NCBI GenBank assembly: GCA_913757435.1
Contig: CAJYDM010000004.1
Coordinates: 124,001 to 188,000 of the forward strand
Length of the DNA: 64,000 nt
Source: Syntrophomonas sp. DTU019
Lineage (GTDB): Bacteria > Bacillota > Syntrophomonadia > Syntrophomonadales > Syntrophomonadaceae
Direction of reading: 5' to 3'
Every line of letters starts with the position of its first letter. Positions within the stretch are counted from its first letter, which is position 1. The position numbers and the translations under genes were made by a program. The notes under the pieces were generated by a model. It saw only the letters and a list, made by a program, of their open reading frames with translations. It had not been told where the DNA came from and ran no database searches. This document shows, in pieces, positions 53,511 to 61,204 of this stretch.

Positions 53511-54296
53511 TTAGTGGGTCTCAATGTCCAACAACTGTGCCAGGGGCTGGTCTTTGACGGCCGTTAAATCGAGGCCCGGTTTGATCTTTACCACTAACGA
53601 AGTGGAGCCCTTGGTCCAGCGGGTTTCAGTGGTCCGGTCGCTTTCCTGATAATGAAAACGCCGCGGGTAGGACAGCCGTGCCCTGGTCAGGCCCTGCACC
53701 ACATCAGCCAGGCAGGGAGCACCGGTTACCCAGACCTTTACGTCAGGTTGTGTCAGCTGACCCAGTTCCCGTTCCGCCGCCAGGCACATCTTAACTCCCA
53801 GGAGCATATCCGGGCACTGCTCCTGATGGTGATATAGAGCCTCTTTGATCATGATCTCCTCTAGCATGGCCTCTTCCCTGGGCTTGATGTAAGGTGTGCG
53901 GGGAGAGAAGATGATATCCTGTTCGTAATACGGTTTGATATCGATAATAGGGGTGCCGTCTATAAAGTCCAGCCTCTGTACATAGAGCAGGTTGTCTTTG
54001 ATGGCATCCAGCCTGGTGCAGGTGAGTCCTATAGGATTCGGTCGGATCGGTGATCTCAGCCCGAACACCCCATACTCAGGCAGATCAGGGTTAATTCTGG
54101 GGTTGACCCGCAGAACATTGCGCACTGATTGATGAAACCATCCCAGTACCCAAATATGAGAATGTTCTCCTAACCGATGCAATGCCGGACTGTACTGGGG
54201 GTATATCTCGATTACAGCTCCCTGCCGACTAACCTTAACCTCATGAGGGTTTTTGAATTCGGTGTGAACTACACCAATAGGTTCGATATTAATCAA
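53511..54296 (-). CDS. TrmO-like (TsaA) protein fused to an FmdE-like domain
   Basis: The TTG at 54296 is taken as start because AGGAGG lies eight bases upstream; the longer frame from 54317 would include that site. Residues ~1-130 are a TsaA/TrmO beta-barrel domain (INIEPIGVVHTEF, VFGLRSPIRPNPIGLT, LDFIDGTPIIDIKPY). This is the S-adenosylmethionine-dependent N6-methyltransferase of t6A in tRNA-Thr. Residues ~145-261 resemble FmdE (HHQEQCPDMLLGVKMCLAAEREL, then APCLADVVQGLT). In FmdE the conserved Cys residues sit near a metal site. The fusion is uncommon, and the FmdE part is a weaker call. Confidence 0.75.
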   Translation of the reverse strand: MINIEPIGVVHTEFKNPHEVKVSRQGAVIEIYPQYSPALHRLGEHSHIWVLGWFHQSVRNVLRVNPRINPDLPEYGVFGLRSPIRPNPIGLTCTRLDAIKDNLLYVQRLDFIDGTPIIDIKPYYEQDIIFSPRTPYIKPREEAMLEEIMIKEALYHHQEQCPDMLLGVKMCLAAERELGQLTQPDVKVWVTGAPCLADVVQGLTRARLSYPRRFHYQESDRTTETRWTKGSTSLVVKIKPGLDLTAVKDQPLAQLLDIETH

Positions 54297-54540
54297 CTTC
54301 AGCACCTCCTGCTTCAATATCTCGGGTCTGATGTTTGTCTCTTCATTATACCTAATTTCCCAGAATGGACTATAATAGTCACATATTTAATCAATCCGAG
54401 TCTACCCGGCGGGTGTAGCATTATTTACCTTTTTAAAAGCACCACTATCCGCGGCATTTAGCGAATTCTTTGCAGGATATCTGCAGTTTATGGCGAATTA
54501 GATTATAAGTATTGAAAAACCATATATTTTCTCCGAGCTG

Positions 54541-54698
54541 CACTGCCTAAAACCTTACGGCCATGGCATTCAGCCGATGGGTCATCCCGGAAACGGGTTG
54601 GCCTCCCATGCTTAGGAAAGGAGAGCAGGTAAGCAACGGCAGTGGTGGTGCTGCTGTTACCGGTGTTACAAATTCTCCTGGCCTGGCCAGGATTTTTT
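54541..54698 (+). promoter_or_regulatory. Moco/Tuco-type riboswitch with terminator
   Basis: CACTGCC (54541-54547) pairs with GGCAGTG (54638-54644) to close the aptamer. Inside are GGTCA-TCCCG-GAAA-CGGGT-TGGCC, the invariant GCCTCCC, the TGCTT/AAGCA stem and GGAAAGGAGAG, which match the molybdenum-cofactor riboswitch pattern as I know it. A CCTGGC/GCCAGG stem with a T6 run at 54677-54698 is the likely expression platform. The next + strand gene is the TiaS-like gene at 55063. Confidence 0.8.
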
Positions 54699-55062
54699 CG
54701 TGCTTGAGCATTAATGCTTAGGTATGAACTAAACCGGATCGACTTCTTCCAGGGCTATCTGCTTGAGTATTAACAGTGCTTAGTATTGCCTAAAAACCTA
54801 AGCCCTTGATTCGCTGGATCGACTCCCGGCCCTCCTGGGGTCCCAGCGAGAAGATCTATAAGTCGGGATCTGCTGGGGCCTTAGCCCCGCCCCAGCAGGT
54901 CAGCCCTCAAAAAGATCGGTCGGGAAACCTTTCGTTTTCGGGTAGGTGATATAGTCAAAGTCAGGCCGCCTCAGTGGTATTTATGGTGCTCCGACATATA
55001 ATGAACTAGGACTCAATTAATAGCGACCTTAATAGACAAATTCAACATCTGGGGGTATGTGC
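54699..55062. other. Leader region with further hairpins
   Basis: No gene is seen between the riboswitch terminator and 55063. A long stem ATCTGCTGGGG/CCCCAGCAGGT lies near 54869-54905, without a T-run. The GGGGG at 55051 is the ribosome binding site of the next gene. Confidence 0.45.
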
Positions 55063-55809
55063 ATGAGACTGTATATTTGCATCGATGACACCGATAACCT
55101 GGAGAGCAGAGGCACTGGCAAGCTTGCCGCCCTCTTGATCGATGAACTGCTCAGAAGGCATTGGGGCAGAGCCTTGCCCATCACCCGCCATCAGCTTTTT
55201 GTGCATCCTGATATCGCCTATACATCGCATAACAGTTCCATGTGCTTCGGGTTTGACACCTTTGAAGACCTTATCCCTGGTATCATTGAATTGGGGGCGG
55301 AGTTCTTGGAAAGAGAGAGTGCACCCGGCTCAGATCCCGGTCTGTGTGTGGCCGCAGTTCCCAGGATGACCCACGTAAACGAAGTTATAGCTTTCGGATG
55401 CCGCGCCAAAGAAGAGGTGCTAAGCAAAGCCGAGGCTTATGAACTGGCCAATCTGGCCGGCATTCACCTTTCGGAACACGGCGGCACTGGCATCGGGGTA
55501 ATTGGCTCGCTGGCCGGAGTAGGCCTCAGGATGGGGGGCAATGACGGGCGATTCCGGGGCAAGATAGAAATCGAACCCGCCTGGACAACCATAACCGTGG
55601 CCAGCCTGATAGAGCGCACCCATGTCGACGAGGTGCGCACCCTGGATGGCTTTCGTCTGCCCGACCGTGAACTAATCCTGCTAGGTGAGACGGTTAAGCC
55701 TGTGCTGTTGAACGGGCGCTGCGTTCAATTGGTCTACCCCACGGAAAAGACCGGTCCTCGTGAACCCAGGTGGCAAACCTGCACCAAAAGCCAGGTAAAA
55801 ATGTTTTAG
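55063..55809 (+). CDS. TiaS-like (tRNA-Ile2 agmatinylcytidine synthase-like) protein
   Basis: The 248-residue product begins MRLYICIDDTDNLESRGTGKLA, the N-terminal signature of the TiaS kinase-like domain, and continues with a ferredoxin-like half that holds HGGTGIGVIGSLAGVGLR. Archaeal TiaS (~420 residues) modifies C34 of tRNA-Ile2 with agmatine; this protein lacks its OB-fold and zinc-ribbon domains, and bacteria use TilS for that job. A different role is therefore likely. The upstream Moco-type riboswitch and neighbouring W/Mo genes suggest a link to molybdenum or tungsten. The start at 55063 is set by GGGGG seven bases upstream. Confidence 0.7.
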   Translation: MRLYICIDDTDNLESRGTGKLAALLIDELLRRHWGRALPITRHQLFVHPDIAYTSHNSSMCFGFDTFEDLIPGIIELGAEFLERESAPGSDPGLCVAAVPRMTHVNEVIAFGCRAKEEVLSKAEAYELANLAGIHLSEHGGTGIGVIGSLAGVGLRMGGNDGRFRGKIEIEPAWTTITVASLIERTHVDEVRTLDGFRLPDRELILLGETVKPVLLNGRCVQLVYPTEKTGPREPRWQTCTKSQVKMF

Positions 55810-55980: not shown

Positions 55981-56118
55981 CTTGTTTGGGGCGATGGTTT
56001 GACTTAAAACCCGGGGACAGTCTTTACCATTCACCAGAGCAGTATATACAGTGATGGTAACATCAGCCCCATTATTTGAATATTCTAGTAGCAGAATAGT
56101 TCTAAATGAGAGAGGTTG

Positions 56119-56682
56119 ATGGATATAATGGATTTTTATGGAGACCATTTTGATACTGAGCTGGTGCGCTATCGGCTTAAGAAACGGAGATCGGGTCATA
56201 AAAGGAACGGCGGTTCGGCAACAACAGCTGATTTGTCTAAAGCTCTGGCGGTCACCGATAATCTCAATCTGGAGCCCAAACTGATTAGCAGCCTGGACGC
56301 CTGGGGTTATGTATTCCATGTCAATACCCAGCAGATAGCCATTGGGGCCCCGATCAACTTCAGCAACAACGGGCCTTTGACTGGTATTGTCCACCAACCT
56401 GGAGGTTCCAATATCGAAGTCACGGCGGGGGGCATTTACAATATTACTTTTGGAGTATATACTGCACAGAACAACCCCCAGGATTGGGCGGTAGTGATAA
56501 ACGGTCAGGTCAGATCAAGATTCAATTCCGCCGGACAGACGATCAATGCCTCCACTCTACTAAGTCTGAATGCGAATGACGGCATCACCATCCGCAATGT
56601 CAACACCTTGCCCAGTCCGGCTACTCTGAGGTCAGGTCCTTTTACCACCGCTTATGTATTGGTGTTAAAAGTGGATGGCTGA
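56119..56682 (+). CDS. BclA C-terminal-like surface protein without collagen repeats
   Basis: The ~187-residue product has a short basic head (RLKKRRSGHKR). A TNF-like jelly-roll domain follows, similar to the BclA exosporium C-terminal domain: INFSNNGPLTGIVHQPGGSNIEVTAGGIYNITFGVYTAQ, then TLLSLNANDGITIRNVNTLPSPATL and a last strand TAYVLVLKV. Gly-X-Y collagen repeats and an exosporium leader are absent. ATG codons at 56119 and 56128 are both possible starts. A role on the spore surface is inferred from the domain. Confidence 0.75.
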   Translation: MDIMDFYGDHFDTELVRYRLKKRRSGHKRNGGSATTADLSKALAVTDNLNLEPKLISSLDAWGYVFHVNTQQIAIGAPINFSNNGPLTGIVHQPGGSNIEVTAGGIYNITFGVYTAQNNPQDWAVVINGQVRSRFNSAGQTINASTLLSLNANDGITIRNVNTLPSPATLRSGPFTTAYVLVLKVDG

Positions 56683-56905: not shown

Positions 56906-57610
56906 CTACCCTTGCCTACTAAATTCATCCACAGCCAGATAGTCGGATGTCACCTGCCGGCTTATTATCTCCCCGTCTTCCATGTAATAAATAATGTCGG
57001 TCAAATCGGTAGCTTCCCTAATATGATGGGTCACCATTACAGTGGTTATGCTGTTCTCCCGCAGCAGGCTGCCAATGTCTTGTTTGAATTCGTCGCGGGT
57101 ACCTTTATCCAGGTTGCTGAAGGGCTCATCCAGGAAAATGACCTCCGGCTGCAGCACCAGGGCTTGTGCGATGGCCACGCGCTGGGCCTCGCCCCCGGAT
57201 AGCGATCTGGCCCGCTGTCTGACCAGATGGTTTATACCCAGCCTTTCCAGCCATGGCGTAACCTGCCTTTCCCGTGCTCTTCGGCTCAGGCCCCGGAATT
57301 TCAGGCCCATTTCCACATTTTCCATAACGCTCGAATCTAGCATCATCGGTTTTTGGAAAACCATTGCCATGCGCCGCCGCAAATTCAATAGAGATTGCTC
57401 ATGGGCCTGTTTGCCGAAATATACTACTGTTCCGCTGGTCGGTTCCAATAAGGCTGCCATGACCAGCATGAGGCTGCTTTTGCCAGCTCCGTTGGGTCCC
57501 ATTAGACTAATAGACTGACCCTCCAGAAGGGCAAAATGGGGTATGTTGAGTATGGTCCGCCCCCCCAACACCAGCGTCATATCCTTTATTTCGATTATTG
57601 CCTTGCTCAT
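56906..57610 (-). CDS. tupC: Tungstate ABC transporter, ATP-binding subunit
   Basis: The 234-residue product has Walker A GPNGAGKSS, Q-loop MVFQKPMML, the ABC signature LSGGEAQRVAIAQAL, Walker B VIFLDEPFSNLD and the H-loop VTHHIREA. It lacks the C-terminal MOP domain found in ModC, so metal sensing is not in this subunit. The start ATG at 57610 overlaps the tupB stop (ATGA), and the more distal frame start is not needed. Confidence 0.9.
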   Translation of the reverse strand: MSKAIIEIKDMTLVLGGRTILNIPHFALLEGQSISLMGPNGAGKSSLMLVMAALLEPTSGTVVYFGKQAHEQSLLNLRRRMAMVFQKPMMLDSSVMENVEMGLKFRGLSRRARERQVTPWLERLGINHLVRQRARSLSGGEAQRVAIAQALVLQPEVIFLDEPFSNLDKGTRDEFKQDIGSLLRENSITTVMVTHHIREATDLTDIIYYMEDGEIISRQVTSDYLAVDEFSRQG

Positions 57611-58305
57611 CTTTGGTTTCTCCATTGCTGCAGGGTGGTCAATAGTGCGGTGACACCATAAGCCAGCCCCAGCAAGATCACGCTCAAAGCGATAGCTACA
57701 TCGAAGTTGCCTTTATTTACCTCCATGACCGTGGCAGTGGTCAAAACCCTGGTCATTCCCTTTATATTACCGCCAACCATCATGGAAGCGCCCACTTCTG
57801 AAACCACACCGCCGAATCCTGCCATAACCGCGGCCAAGAGCCCCAACCGGGCTTCTTTGACGAGGCTCCACAGCATCTGCATGCGGTTAGCGCCCAAGGC
57901 CAGCAGTTGCAGGCGAATTCGGGGATTGATCTGCTGTATCGCCGCCAGAGTGAAGCTGGTCACTATTGGGGAGGCGATCACTGCCTGAGCGATAATTATA
58001 GCCAGGGGGGTGTAAATAATATTGAATGCTCCGAAAGGGCCTGACCGCCATAGGAAGATGCTGACCCATAGCCCCACAACCACTGGCGGCAAGCCCATTC
58101 CGAAATTGGCCAGACTGACTAGGAAGTTGCGCCCCGGGAAGCGTCCCAGAGCCAATACCGCTCCCAGCGGAACGCCGATTAAGACGCTCACCAAGGTGGC
58201 GGTTCCCGAAACCTTGAGGGTCAGCCAGGTGACTTCCAGGACCTCCGGGTCCAACGCCATGAGCAAATAAAACGCCTTGACCAAACCTTCCCATATCAGT
58301 TCCAC
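57607..58305 (-). CDS. tupB: Tungstate ABC transporter, permease subunit
   Basis: The 232-residue product has five to six transmembrane helices and the binding-protein-dependent permease signature EVGASMMVGGNIKGMTRVLTTATVMEV near the C-terminal half (the EAA-type loop). Length and sequence pattern match TupB. It overlaps tupC by four bases and lies 29 bases after tupA. Confidence 0.9.
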   Translation of the reverse strand: MELIWEGLVKAFYLLMALDPEVLEVTWLTLKVSGTATLVSVLIGVPLGAVLALGRFPGRNFLVSLANFGMGLPPVVVGLWVSIFLWRSGPFGAFNIIYTPLAIIIAQAVIASPIVTSFTLAAIQQINPRIRLQLLALGANRMQMLWSLVKEARLGLLAAVMAGFGGVVSEVGASMMVGGNIKGMTRVLTTATVMEVNKGNFDVAIALSVILLGLAYGVTALLTTLQQWRNQR

Positions 58306-58334: not shown

Positions 58335-59213
58335 TTACTTACCGAGGTCGGCCTCATTCTTACCCGCGTCGGCATAGAATAGGGCCTGCCCGTACTCCTG
58401 CACTTTGAACTCACTTATAATCTTTTGAGTTGCAGGCGCTACCATAAATTCCACAAACGCTTTGGCGCCTGCTGCATTGACCTTCGGGTATTTCTCAGGG
58501 TTGACCTGGGCGACATGGTAAATATTCAACAAGGCCGTTTCGCCTTCCACCAGGATCACCAGGCTGAGGTTCTTCTTCTGCGCTAAGTAGGTGGCACGGT
58601 CTGTAAGGGTATAGCCGCTCTTCTGCTGGGCGATGGTCAAGGTCTGCCCCATGCCCTGTCCGGCCTCTTGATACTTGTCACTCACGGTGGGGGTTATTCC
58701 GGCGGCTTTCCACAGGTTCTTCTCCATGGTATGAGTCCCAGAATTGTCACCGCGGGAGATGAACAGGGCGCCTTTTTCATTGATCTTTTTAAAGGCCTCG
58801 GCCGCTGTCTTGATTCCCTTGATCTGGGCCGGGTCATTCTCCGGACCGACTATCACGAAATCGTTATGCATCACCAATTGATAATTTGTGATGGCACCGC
58901 TCTCCAGCATGGGCTTCTCCTGTGAAGGAGCATGAGTCAGAAGCACATCTGCTTCGCCTTTCTGGCCCATGGTCAGAGCAGCCCCGGTTCCAACTGCAAC
59001 AGTCTTGATCACATAACCGCTCTGCTTTTCAAATTCGGGGATCAGCACATCCAAAAGACCGCTATCCTGCGTGCTGGTAGTGGTGGCCAGGATGACGTCT
59101 TTGTTGACCGGAGGTGCCGGAGTTTGCTGCGCCTGCTGCTGGGTACAGCCCACGATGCTCACCAGAAATACCATCAATAAAACCAGGGGCAAATACTTCT
59201 TCTTTAAAAACAT
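58335..59213 (-). CDS. tupA: Tungstate-binding lipoprotein TupA
   Basis: The 292-residue product starts with a lipobox IVGC (residue 23). The TupA oxyanion pocket follows: ILATTTSTQDSGLLDVLIPEFEKQSGY, GEADVLLTHAPSQE, and FISRGDNSGTHTMEKNLW. TupA binds tungstate in preference to molybdate. A strong GAGGAGGTAAAAG site precedes the ATG. The gene is preceded by three riboswitch-like modules between 59391 and 59900. Confidence 0.93.
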   Translation of the reverse strand: MFLKKKYLPLVLLMVFLVSIVGCTQQQAQQTPAPPVNKDVILATTTSTQDSGLLDVLIPEFEKQSGYVIKTVAVGTGAALTMGQKGEADVLLTHAPSQEKPMLESGAITNYQLVMHNDFVIVGPENDPAQIKGIKTAAEAFKKINEKGALFISRGDNSGTHTMEKNLWKAAGITPTVSDKYQEAGQGMGQTLTIAQQKSGYTLTDRATYLAQKKNLSLVILVEGETALLNIYHVAQVNPEKYPKVNAAGAKAFVEFMVAPATQKIISEFKVQEYGQALFYADAGKNEADLGK

Positions 59214-59390: not shown

Positions 59391-59548
59391 CCCAAAAAAT
59401 GGCCGCACCCCGCATTCACAAGGCGGACACGACTTTTCAAGCCTAAACCAGTTCACTGTTCTTTTCAAATGCGAGAGGCACAACAGTCTCCTCTTGCACC
59501 CATGGTCTTGTGCTCCATACCTAAAGACTGCAGGAGCACGCGACCGGA
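59391..59548 (-). promoter_or_regulatory. Moco/Tuco-like riboswitch C with terminator (nearest tupA, degenerate)
   Basis: This is the third module in transcription order: aptamer 59548-59448, terminator 59433-59401 followed by a T6 run. It keeps the GTGCTCC/GGAGCAC hairpin and the GGTGCA...TGTGCC stem. Two otherwise constant segments have changed: CCTCCC is CCTCTC, and GGAAAGGAGAG is GAAAAGAACAG. Ligand binding may be lost here. Confidence 0.7.
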
Positions 59549-59573
59549 GAAATCCAATAATTACGGTTCCAAA

Positions 59574-59725
59574 AATAAAAAGCCGCACCCGCACTGAAAG
59601 AGCAGACTCGACTTTTAATCCTGATCATTCCACTCTCCTTTCCAAATGCGGGAGGCACAACAGTTTCCTCTTGCACCCATCGTCCTGTGCTCCATACCTA
59701 ATGGCTGCAGGAGCACACGATCGGA
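59574..59725 (-). promoter_or_regulatory. Moco/Tuco-like riboswitch B with terminator
   Basis: Aptamer 59725-59619: closing stem TCCGATC/GATCAGGA, hairpin GTGCTCC/GGAGCAC, GGTGCA-AGAG-GAAA-CTGT-TGTGCC, the invariant GCCTCCC, the GCATT/AATG stem and GGAAAGGAGAG. A 13-base G-U-rich stem with a TTTTTATTTTT tail (59612-59574) follows as terminator. It is nearly identical to module A. Confidence 0.8.
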
Positions 59726-59750
59726 GAAATCAAATAATTGCGGTTCCAAA

Positions 59751-59900
59751 AATAAAAAGCCGCACCCGCACTAAAAGAGCAGACTCGACTTTTTCCTGAT
59801 CATTCCACTCTCCTTTCCAAATGCGGGAGGCACAACAGTTTCCTCTTGCACCCATCGTCCTGTACTCCATACCTAATGGCTGCAGGAGCACACGATCGGA
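59751..59900 (-). promoter_or_regulatory. Moco/Tuco-like riboswitch A with terminator
   Basis: This is the first module after the promoter: aptamer 59900-59794, terminator 59789-59751 with a TTTTTATT tail. It shares GCCTCCC-N5-TGGAAAGGAGAG with the + strand riboswitch at 54541 but has a different, compensated helix (GCATT/AATG instead of TGCTT/AAGCA). The unit repeats with a ~176-base period. Confidence 0.8.
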
Positions 59901-59930
59901 GAAATATTGGTTTTAAGTAATCTTCGCCAA

Positions 59931-59959
59931 TTTCTAGCATAATCCTGCTCGAGTTGCAA
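59931..59959 (-). promoter_or_regulatory. Putative promoter of the tup operon
   Basis: On the - strand, TTGCAA (59959-59954), a 17-base spacer and TAGAAA (59936-59931) precede module A by ~30 bases. The -10 box is a moderate match. The position fits a transcript that starts just before the first aptamer. Confidence 0.45.
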
Positions 59960-60116
59960 AATTATTCCGTGTACGTTTAAAGCCAGCAACGGTGATGACG
60001 GTTTTTAGGGCGGATCATAAAGAGCCGCTAAGGTCTGGCTCCTGAAAAAGTGGTTAATTATTGTAAAATTCGATTATACTTTAAGTAGACAAACTCACAA
60101 GAAAGGATGGGGTTTT

Positions 60117-60332
60117 ATGTCAAAAGGGACTATCTTTGTACGCGAACGCCGCAAAGTCCAGGAGGGCGAGAAAAAGCCCCGGTTTGCTGTAGTAGGAGTG
60201 GCAGGAATGGATCTAAAGTTGCATGCAAAACACATACGCCGCATGGAATTGGAACAGATGGCCAAAATACTCGACGCCCAAGTAGTATATCTGGAAGCCG
60301 GTAATGACGAAGATGAAATAGATGAGGATTAA
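60117..60332 (+). CDS. Small protein preceding the Mo-storage-like gene
   Basis: The 71-residue product starts MSKGTIFVRERRKV, continues FAVVGVAGMDLKLHAKHIRRMELEQMAKILDAQVVYLEAG, and ends in an acidic tail NDEDEIDED. An AAAGGATGGGG site precedes the ATG. I do not recognise a named family. It lies 26 bases before the MoSto-like gene and probably forms an operon with it. The acidic tail could bind metal or nucleotide partners, but no motif proves that. Confidence 0.65.
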   Translation: MSKGTIFVRERRKVQEGEKKPRFAVVGVAGMDLKLHAKHIRRMELEQMAKILDAQVVYLEAGNDEDEIDED

Positions 60333-60358
60333 TCCTGGCAAACACGGGGAAAGGCGGA

Positions 60359-61204
60359 TTGGCTGTGGCACTGATTAGAGAGCGAGACAGCAAGCGGCTG
60401 CATATCAAAAGTAAACTGATGGGTGAATCCCTGGTGAGCAAGAGTTTTATTGAGGGTCTGGAGCAGGCGGAACAATTCCGCGCACTGCCGCAAGTCAGTG
60501 TACTTAAAATCGGCGGGCAGAGCATCACCGACATGGGCGCTAAAGCGGTTTTGCCCATTTTAAAGGAAATCGTGAGCAACGCTAAAGATCATAAAATGAT
60601 TATATCTACCGGTGGAGGCACCCGCTCTCGGCATGTTTATTCCATCGCCATGGAGTTGGGAATGCCTACTGGGGTCATCGCCAAGCTTGGTCAGAGCGTC
60701 TCCGAGCAGAATGCTTTGATGATCTCCACTCTGTTGATGCCTCACGGAGGCATTAAGGTGGGACATGATGATATTCCCAAACTGGCCGCTTATTTCTCTC
60801 AGGGCTGCATCCCGGTCATCCATGGTATGCCCCCATACGGCTACTGGGAGCACCTTCCCGCCCAGGGCAGTCTGCCTCCCAACCGCACCGACATGGGAGC
60901 CTACCTGTTGGCTGAGGTGATCGGCGCTCGGCAGTGCATTTATATCAAAGATGTGGATGGTCTTTATGAGGACAATCCCAAGTTATACCCTGAGGCCAAA
61001 TTTATTCCCCGTATCGGGGTGCGAGAACTGCACTCCCTGGATTTGGATGACCTGGTGGTAGAGCGGACAGTACTGGACATGCTAAGCCGCTCCCGCAGTG
61101 TGACCGAGATACAAATAATAAATGGACTAATCCCCGGCAATATTACCCGGGCCCTAATTGGCGAGCACGTTGGCACCATCATTTACAACGACTCTGAAAA
61201 TTAA
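60359..61204 (+). CDS. Molybdenum storage protein (MoSto)-like amino acid kinase fold
   Basis: The 281-residue product belongs to the amino acid kinase/UMP kinase superfamily and is closest in pattern to MosA/MosB: VLKIGGQSITDMGAKAVLPIL, IISTGGGTRSRHVYSIAMELGMPTGVIAKLGQSVSEQNALM, VIHGMPPYGYWEH, PPNRTDMGAYLLAEVIGA, IKDVDGLYEDNP and ALIGEHVGTII. MoSto packs polyoxomolybdate or -tungstate clusters using ATP. Azotobacter has two subunits; here only one gene is seen. The start is TTG at 60359 (GGAAAGG four bases upstream) or GTG at 60365. The neighbouring tup operon supports a Mo/W role. Confidence 0.82.
   Translation: MAVALIRERDSKRLHIKSKLMGESLVSKSFIEGLEQAEQFRALPQVSVLKIGGQSITDMGAKAVLPILKEIVSNAKDHKMIISTGGGTRSRHVYSIAMELGMPTGVIAKLGQSVSEQNALMISTLLMPHGGIKVGHDDIPKLAAYFSQGCIPVIHGMPPYGYWEHLPAQGSLPPNRTDMGAYLLAEVIGARQCIYIKDVDGLYEDNPKLYPEAKFIPRIGVRELHSLDLDDLVVERTVLDMLSRSRSVTEIQIINGLIPGNITRALIGEHVGTIIYNDSEN

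Follow-up and report, generated by a model that had tools for sequence, protein, structure and literature searches.

P3-less RNAs of the RF01055 class have been associated with tungsten-cofactor metabolism (Regulski et al., PMC2408646), their ligand in 2008 being inferred rather than directly shown. In S. wolfei the same authors found a run of three P3-less RNAs, the first two each followed by a terminator, and suggested that this array gives a more digital response to the tungsten cofactor (Regulski et al. 2008, PMC2408646). For Moco RNAs, the accessible text of Sherlock et al. (2022, PMC9481103) counts 13 doublets and 2 triplets. The window analysed here, the whole 64,000-nucleotide stretch of DNA from Syntrophomonas sp. 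DTU019, carries the triple-array architecture known since 2008 at a different operon. An earlier note on this DNA had singled out the triple array as unusual; it is not novel, as both the three P3-less RNAs and the same 'digital response' idea were published for S. wolfei (PMC2408646).

On the minus strand, positions 59394-59913 hold three in-register direct repeats at spacings of 175 and 177 nt, bearing out the three ~176-base repeats reported for the tup strand. Each module is ~175 nt long, and the three precede a TupABC-like operon on the same strand:

59794-59913, minus strand: aptamer 1 (distal), Tuco type without P3, RF01055 68.6 bits, 0 of 36 near-invariant columns changed
59821-59827, minus strand: antiterminator arm 1, CCCGCAT, pairs with GTGCGGG at 59765-59771, 8-nt complementary run
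59748-59794, minus strand: terminator 1, hairpin plus TTTTTATTTTT, -16.4 kcal/mol, z -3.9
59619-59738, minus strand: aptamer 2, Tuco type without P3, RF01055 70.9 bits
59646-59652, minus strand: antiterminator arm 2, CCCGCAT, pairs with GTGCGGG at 59588-59594
59571-59616, minus strand: terminator 2, hairpin plus TTTTTATTTTT, -14.9 kcal/mol, z -3.4
59438-59561, minus strand: aptamer 3 (gene-proximal), degenerate, RF01055 33.2 bits, below 36
59468-59474, minus strand: antiterminator arm 3, TCGCATT, pairs with AATGCGG at 59410-59416, contiguous duplex kept
59394-59438, minus strand: terminator 3, hairpin, then CA, then TTTTTT, -16.0 kcal/mol, z -2.1

The RF01055 covariance search gave full-length matches above the Rfam gathering score of 36 bits for aptamers 1 and 2, whereas copy 3 fell below it (E 7e-6 in a 921-base search). 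Module 2 is 95% identical to module 1, and in the alignments the P3 positions of the model are unfilled in copies 1, 2 and 3. The GCCTCCC motif and a second motif that had been ascribed to every copy are missing from copy 3, which has GCCTCTC and GAAAAGAACAG instead. The window contains a further RF01055 match on the plus strand (54519-54639, 74.2 bits), and the genome total is 12 RF01055-type RNAs with copy 3 counted. Within 54519-55809 (plus strand), this further riboswitch is followed by the gene for a protein of 250 aa that resembles TiaS in its N-terminal part, and this TiaS-like protein is kept near a Tuco RNA in congeners; divergent from this unit, 53511-54317 (minus strand) encodes a TrmO protein whose C-terminus weakly resembles FmdE.

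The proposed combination of Moco/Tuco aptamers, terminators and a tungstate transporter was confirmed by the RF01055 matches, by folding and by the downstream genes:

58335-59213, minus strand: tupA-like gene for a tungstate-binding protein, NF041772 TupA 7.8e-66, below the equivalog cut-off
57607-58305, minus strand: tupB-like permease gene, NF041773 TupB 5.7e-48, below the equivalog cut-off, NF038017 above cut-off
56906-57625, minus strand: tupC-like ATPase gene, best named match WtpC 2.8e-44, PF00005

A tungstate preference of the transporter is predicted by homology, with TupA and TupB under their equivalog cut-offs. Two marks of the Tuco subtype, a missing P3 and a gene context of tungsten metabolism, were found at the array, and the absence of P3 points to the Tuco (tungsten-cofactor) type. 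Flanking the operon, 56116-56682 (plus strand) encodes a protein resembling exosporium BclA_C (E 3e-8, which misses the Pfam cut-off) 3' of tupC on the opposite strand, and 60117-61204 (plus strand), divergent from tup, encodes a protein of 71 aa that matched no family, together with a molybdenum storage protein homologue (MoSto beta, E about 3e-76). This pair adjoins tup in three congeners, and the neighbourhood may thus constitute an import-plus-storage locus.

Each aptamer has its own expression platform, the hairpin being strong in modules 1 and 2 and weaker in module 3. These hairpins came from folding; a strict consensus scan of the window listed no terminator. In modules 1 and 2 the strands AAGUCG-A-GUCUGC and GCGGGU-G-CGGCUU form the hairpin, followed by UUUUUAUUUUU, and 0 of 200 dinucleotide shuffles folded as well as either terminator, compared with 6 of 200 for terminator 3. 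A terminator with its own T-run, claimed for every module, is present in modules 1 and 2, whereas module 3 has the hairpin but a U-run offset by CA. Within the aptamer, the segment CCCGCAU lies 3' of the conserved CCU and can pair with GUGCGGG, part of the 3' arm of the terminator in the same module; in the window modules and in a congener (G001) this antiterminator is eight to nine uninterrupted base pairs long. By RNAfold, which takes no account of ligand, tertiary contacts or co-transcriptional folding, the forced terminator and antiterminator states differ by at most 1.2 kcal/mol in module 1 and by no more than about 3 kcal/mol overall, near-equal modelled energies as would be expected of a switch.

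We compared this complementarity across related modules. Amongst tup modules, the mean run between loop and terminator was 6.64 compared with 5.43 after shuffling, and 15 of 28 had a run of at least 7. Over all 123 modules the signal was weak (own 5.87, swapped 5.60, shuffled 5.55), and we rejected the pairing as a class-wide feature, since only the tup/Syntrophomonadaceae group shows it clearly. The compensated helix proposed earlier (GCATT/AATG, with TGCTT/AAGCA in the copy at 54541) found no such support, its longest run averaging 4.29 in own and 4.23 in swapped comparisons of 124 modules. The alternative pairing that fits the data is, unlike that helix, between the aptamer loop CCCGCAU and the terminator 3' arm.

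We consider it likely that this P3-less RF01055 tandem array acts by OFF-type transcription attenuation in response to tungsten cofactor, with modules 1 and 2 as working switches and module 3 degenerate; the ligand and the OFF direction are what we infer. Transcription would begin from a sigma-H-type promoter immediately ahead of aptamer 1. In an intact module free of ligand, the aptamer loop CUCCCGCAU would pair with the terminator 3' arm and polymerase would read on, whereas bound ligand would close P1 and keep the loop inside the aptamer, so that the terminator hairpin forms and transcription stops. Plentiful tungsten cofactor would in this way shut off tungstate import. Two serial decisions should deepen repression and narrow the ligand range: in a serial model that assumes independent switches of equal affinity (equal K), the ligand ratio needed to move from 90 to 10% of the range is 81 for one switch, 42-49 for two and 33-37 for three, and fold repression multiplies with switch number. 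If module 3 is blind to ligand, only two decisions would count and the third would merely scale output.

The predicted start of the tup transcript, ~59913, is at the edge of aptamer 1, downstream of the following element:

59920-59948, minus strand: sigma-H-type promoter GCAGGATTA-N11-GGCGAAGAT, one mismatch to RNAGGAWWW-N11/12-RNNGAATWW

Sigma-H promoters have a spacer of 11-12 between their two elements. Their published consensus is RNAGGAWWW / RNNGAATWW (PMC8510167). The leader of the 54519 riboswitch contains a perfect match to this consensus, GCAGGATAT-N11-GGCGAATTA, at 54472-54500 (plus strand). In a survey of tup leaders (L031-L106), AGG[AG]-N16-18-GAA occurred at most 60 nt upstream of the first aptamer in 23 of the 36 leaders with an aptamer, compared with 0.67 by base shuffles, and the full consensus with at most 2 mismatches in 21 of 38 leaders, compared with 1.5 expected. 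The genome encodes sigH (363.7 bits, cut-off 294.8). The promoter matches suggest sigma-H control of tungstate uptake from this predicted promoter. A sigma-70-like site from the consensus scan (60100-60073), from which transcripts would start near 60066, was set aside as a possible but less favored promoter in view of the sigma-H-type element, which is conserved.

By gene order, the window array is orthologous to the tup leaders of three congeners, which have three modules (G001), two (G002) and at least two (G003, interrupted by an assembly gap). Modules 1 and 2 of G001 are 92% identical, and array copies cluster by genome instead of position (support 93-94, not starred); thus, copies arise or are homogenised within lineages. 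Amongst TupA relatives in other genomes, 36 of 80 are preceded by one or more such aptamers at a distance of up to 1.6 kb; apart from the two congeners (L031, L032), a pair of aptamers is present in six (L041, L044, L050, L053, L062, L088). Counting arrays in related genomes, as had been proposed, yielded 45 arrays in 28 of the 54 family genomes, 51 of which contain RF01055; arrays were defined from match lists as same-strand RF01055 neighbours less than ~400 nt apart. With sub-threshold members included, 14 of the 45 are made up of at least three units, and most array modules have a recognisable terminator. Four-member arrays are firm at G033:C91 and G032:C37, the four-unit array of G032 including a divergent pair. 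At G052:C45 there are five RF01055 passes, with a 100-N scaffold gap at 1684 between members four and five, and we left this array out of the firm counts as a five-member case because of that gap. Several of the long arrays stand before formate dehydrogenase genes with a reading frame in two parts, which suggests a selenocysteine codon; long arrays before formate dehydrogenase genes are found at L131:3039-3790, L130:2870-4147 and L144:882-1913 (G033, G032 and G052). C94T paired with G107A (A2 columns) recurs in array modules of G032, G010, G013, G014, G016, G042 and G051 and is a natural covariation, C-G to U-A, at a small aptamer helix. With 45 arrays against the 13 Moco doublets and 2 triplets of the published survey, Syntrophomonadaceae is a hot spot in which arrays are far commoner and longer than published counts.

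The earlier claim of three complete units holds for modules 1 and 2 and fails for module 3, which is below the cut-off and changed at core positions. Near-invariant here means conserved to at least 96% among 28 related aptamers, a set that includes copies 1 and 2; of the 36 such columns, none was changed in copies 1 and 2 and five were changed in copy 3 (A19G, A81G, C95T, G107A, G112A). As read from the alignment, two of the six P1 pairs of copy 3 are mismatched (C-A and U-U), and UUUGGAAAGGAG is replaced by UUUGAAAAGAACAG with loss of the conserved UGGAAAGGAG. The antiterminator pairing is kept (UCGCAUU with AAUGCGG) and the tetraloop is still GNRA (GAGA). A family-specific model scores copy 3 at 58.2 bits, so part of its function may persist. 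Because core and P1 changed while hairpin and antiterminator were kept, we read module 3 as a failing sensor with its terminator left, most likely a decaying switch that now serves as a weak, largely ligand-blind attenuator; if it is blind, the array is a double switch plus a fixed attenuator. A rule that the worn copy is always the proximal one was true of tup arrays and of genus g17 FDH arrays and false elsewhere: the weakest member is distal in G014_C37, G014_C16, G016_C39 and G048_C20, and members near or under the cut-off (G014_C37 33.7, G048_C20 27.7, G036_C126 36.1 and G029 37.1 bits) occur at either array end.

These same features bear on two other readings of copy 3. Three fully working switches, with copy 3 binding the same ligand and adding a third sharpening step, was the model of the earlier note, and the retained terminator, compensated antiterminator duplex, GNRA tetraloop and family-model score all speak for it; we nevertheless regard it as quite unlikely in view of the sub-threshold 33.2 bits, the changes at near-invariant A19, A81, C95, G107 and G112, the two mismatched P1 pairs and the lost UGGAAAGGAG. 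Alternatively, copy 3 might now recognise Moco, free molybdopterin or a late precursor, in which case the leader would act as a gate with two inputs. Its changes do sit in the conserved core with the expression-platform pairing kept, and tandem aptamers of altered specificity are described for other classes in the accessible text of PMC9481103. The third copy of G001, however, carries other changes (G90A, C92T) and is without a U-run terminator; such different decay argues against a shared new aptamer or a conserved new ligand, and since weakened copies elsewhere occur at the distal end too, a changed ligand seems highly improbable.

A further explanation concerns the array as a whole, which could be the byproduct of a duplication-prone leader where replication slippage multiplies modules and lets them decay, copy number having little selective value. 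The 95% identity of modules 1 and 2, the grouping of copies by genome and not position, and the tup copy numbers of the four genomes compared within the genus (3, 3, 2 and at least 2) would all be in keeping with this. On the other hand, the 45 arrays found in the 54 genomes stand before different genes and most of their modules have their own terminator, which suggests retention, and we judge a mere byproduct unlikely.

Three aspects of the locus are possibly new: the sigma-H-type promoter that many tup leaders carry immediately ahead of their first aptamer, the variation of array copy number within a genus, and the divergent molybdenum-storage-protein homologue beside tup. More broadly, we tentatively raise the possibility that Syntrophomonadaceae possess an expandable form of tungsten control, in which Tuco units reach at least four copies, copy number and decay set steepness and floor, and uptake is transcribed by sigma-H. 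If true, sigma-H promoters would tie tungsten supply to a stationary-phase/sporulation sigma factor, and tungsten uptake in syntrophic anaerobes would receive a signal that had not been expected. One family would also offer a natural series of one, two, three and four modules for tests of serial sharpening and of the fate of decayed modules.

The closest comparison is with the S. wolfei array of Regulski et al., to which we provisionally matched G037:C1:1171439-1172054 (minus strand) on the triple array itself. Both arrays consist of three P3-less RF01055 RNAs with terminators after the first two, in the same bacterial family, and in both the gene-proximal copy is weakest (74.8, 59.5 and 47.4 bits in G037). 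In contrast to the window array before tupABC, the G037 array precedes a formate dehydrogenase gene that contains an in-frame stop, apparently TGA, followed by two MoeA/MoCF_biosynth genes, and its third copy spans 251 nt rather than about 120. With the Moco/Wco tandems of Sherlock et al. (2022, PMC9481103) the locus shares the class and the 'pseudo-cooperative' architecture; in the accessible text of that survey, Moco tandems precede cofactor biosynthesis genes and Wco tandems other genes, and the tup operon is unnamed. The triple c-di-GMP-I riboswitch of Bacillus thuringiensis, as cited in the same accessible text, likewise places three units in series for a more digital response, but it has another ligand and aptamer and was experimentally tested, while the tup array is known here from sequence. 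Finally, four tup leaders of other Syntrophomonadaceae (L033, L035, L036, L038) have the aptamer type, terminator, upstream GCAGG element and gene in common with the window, and differ in placing a single Tuco module before tupA where the window has three.
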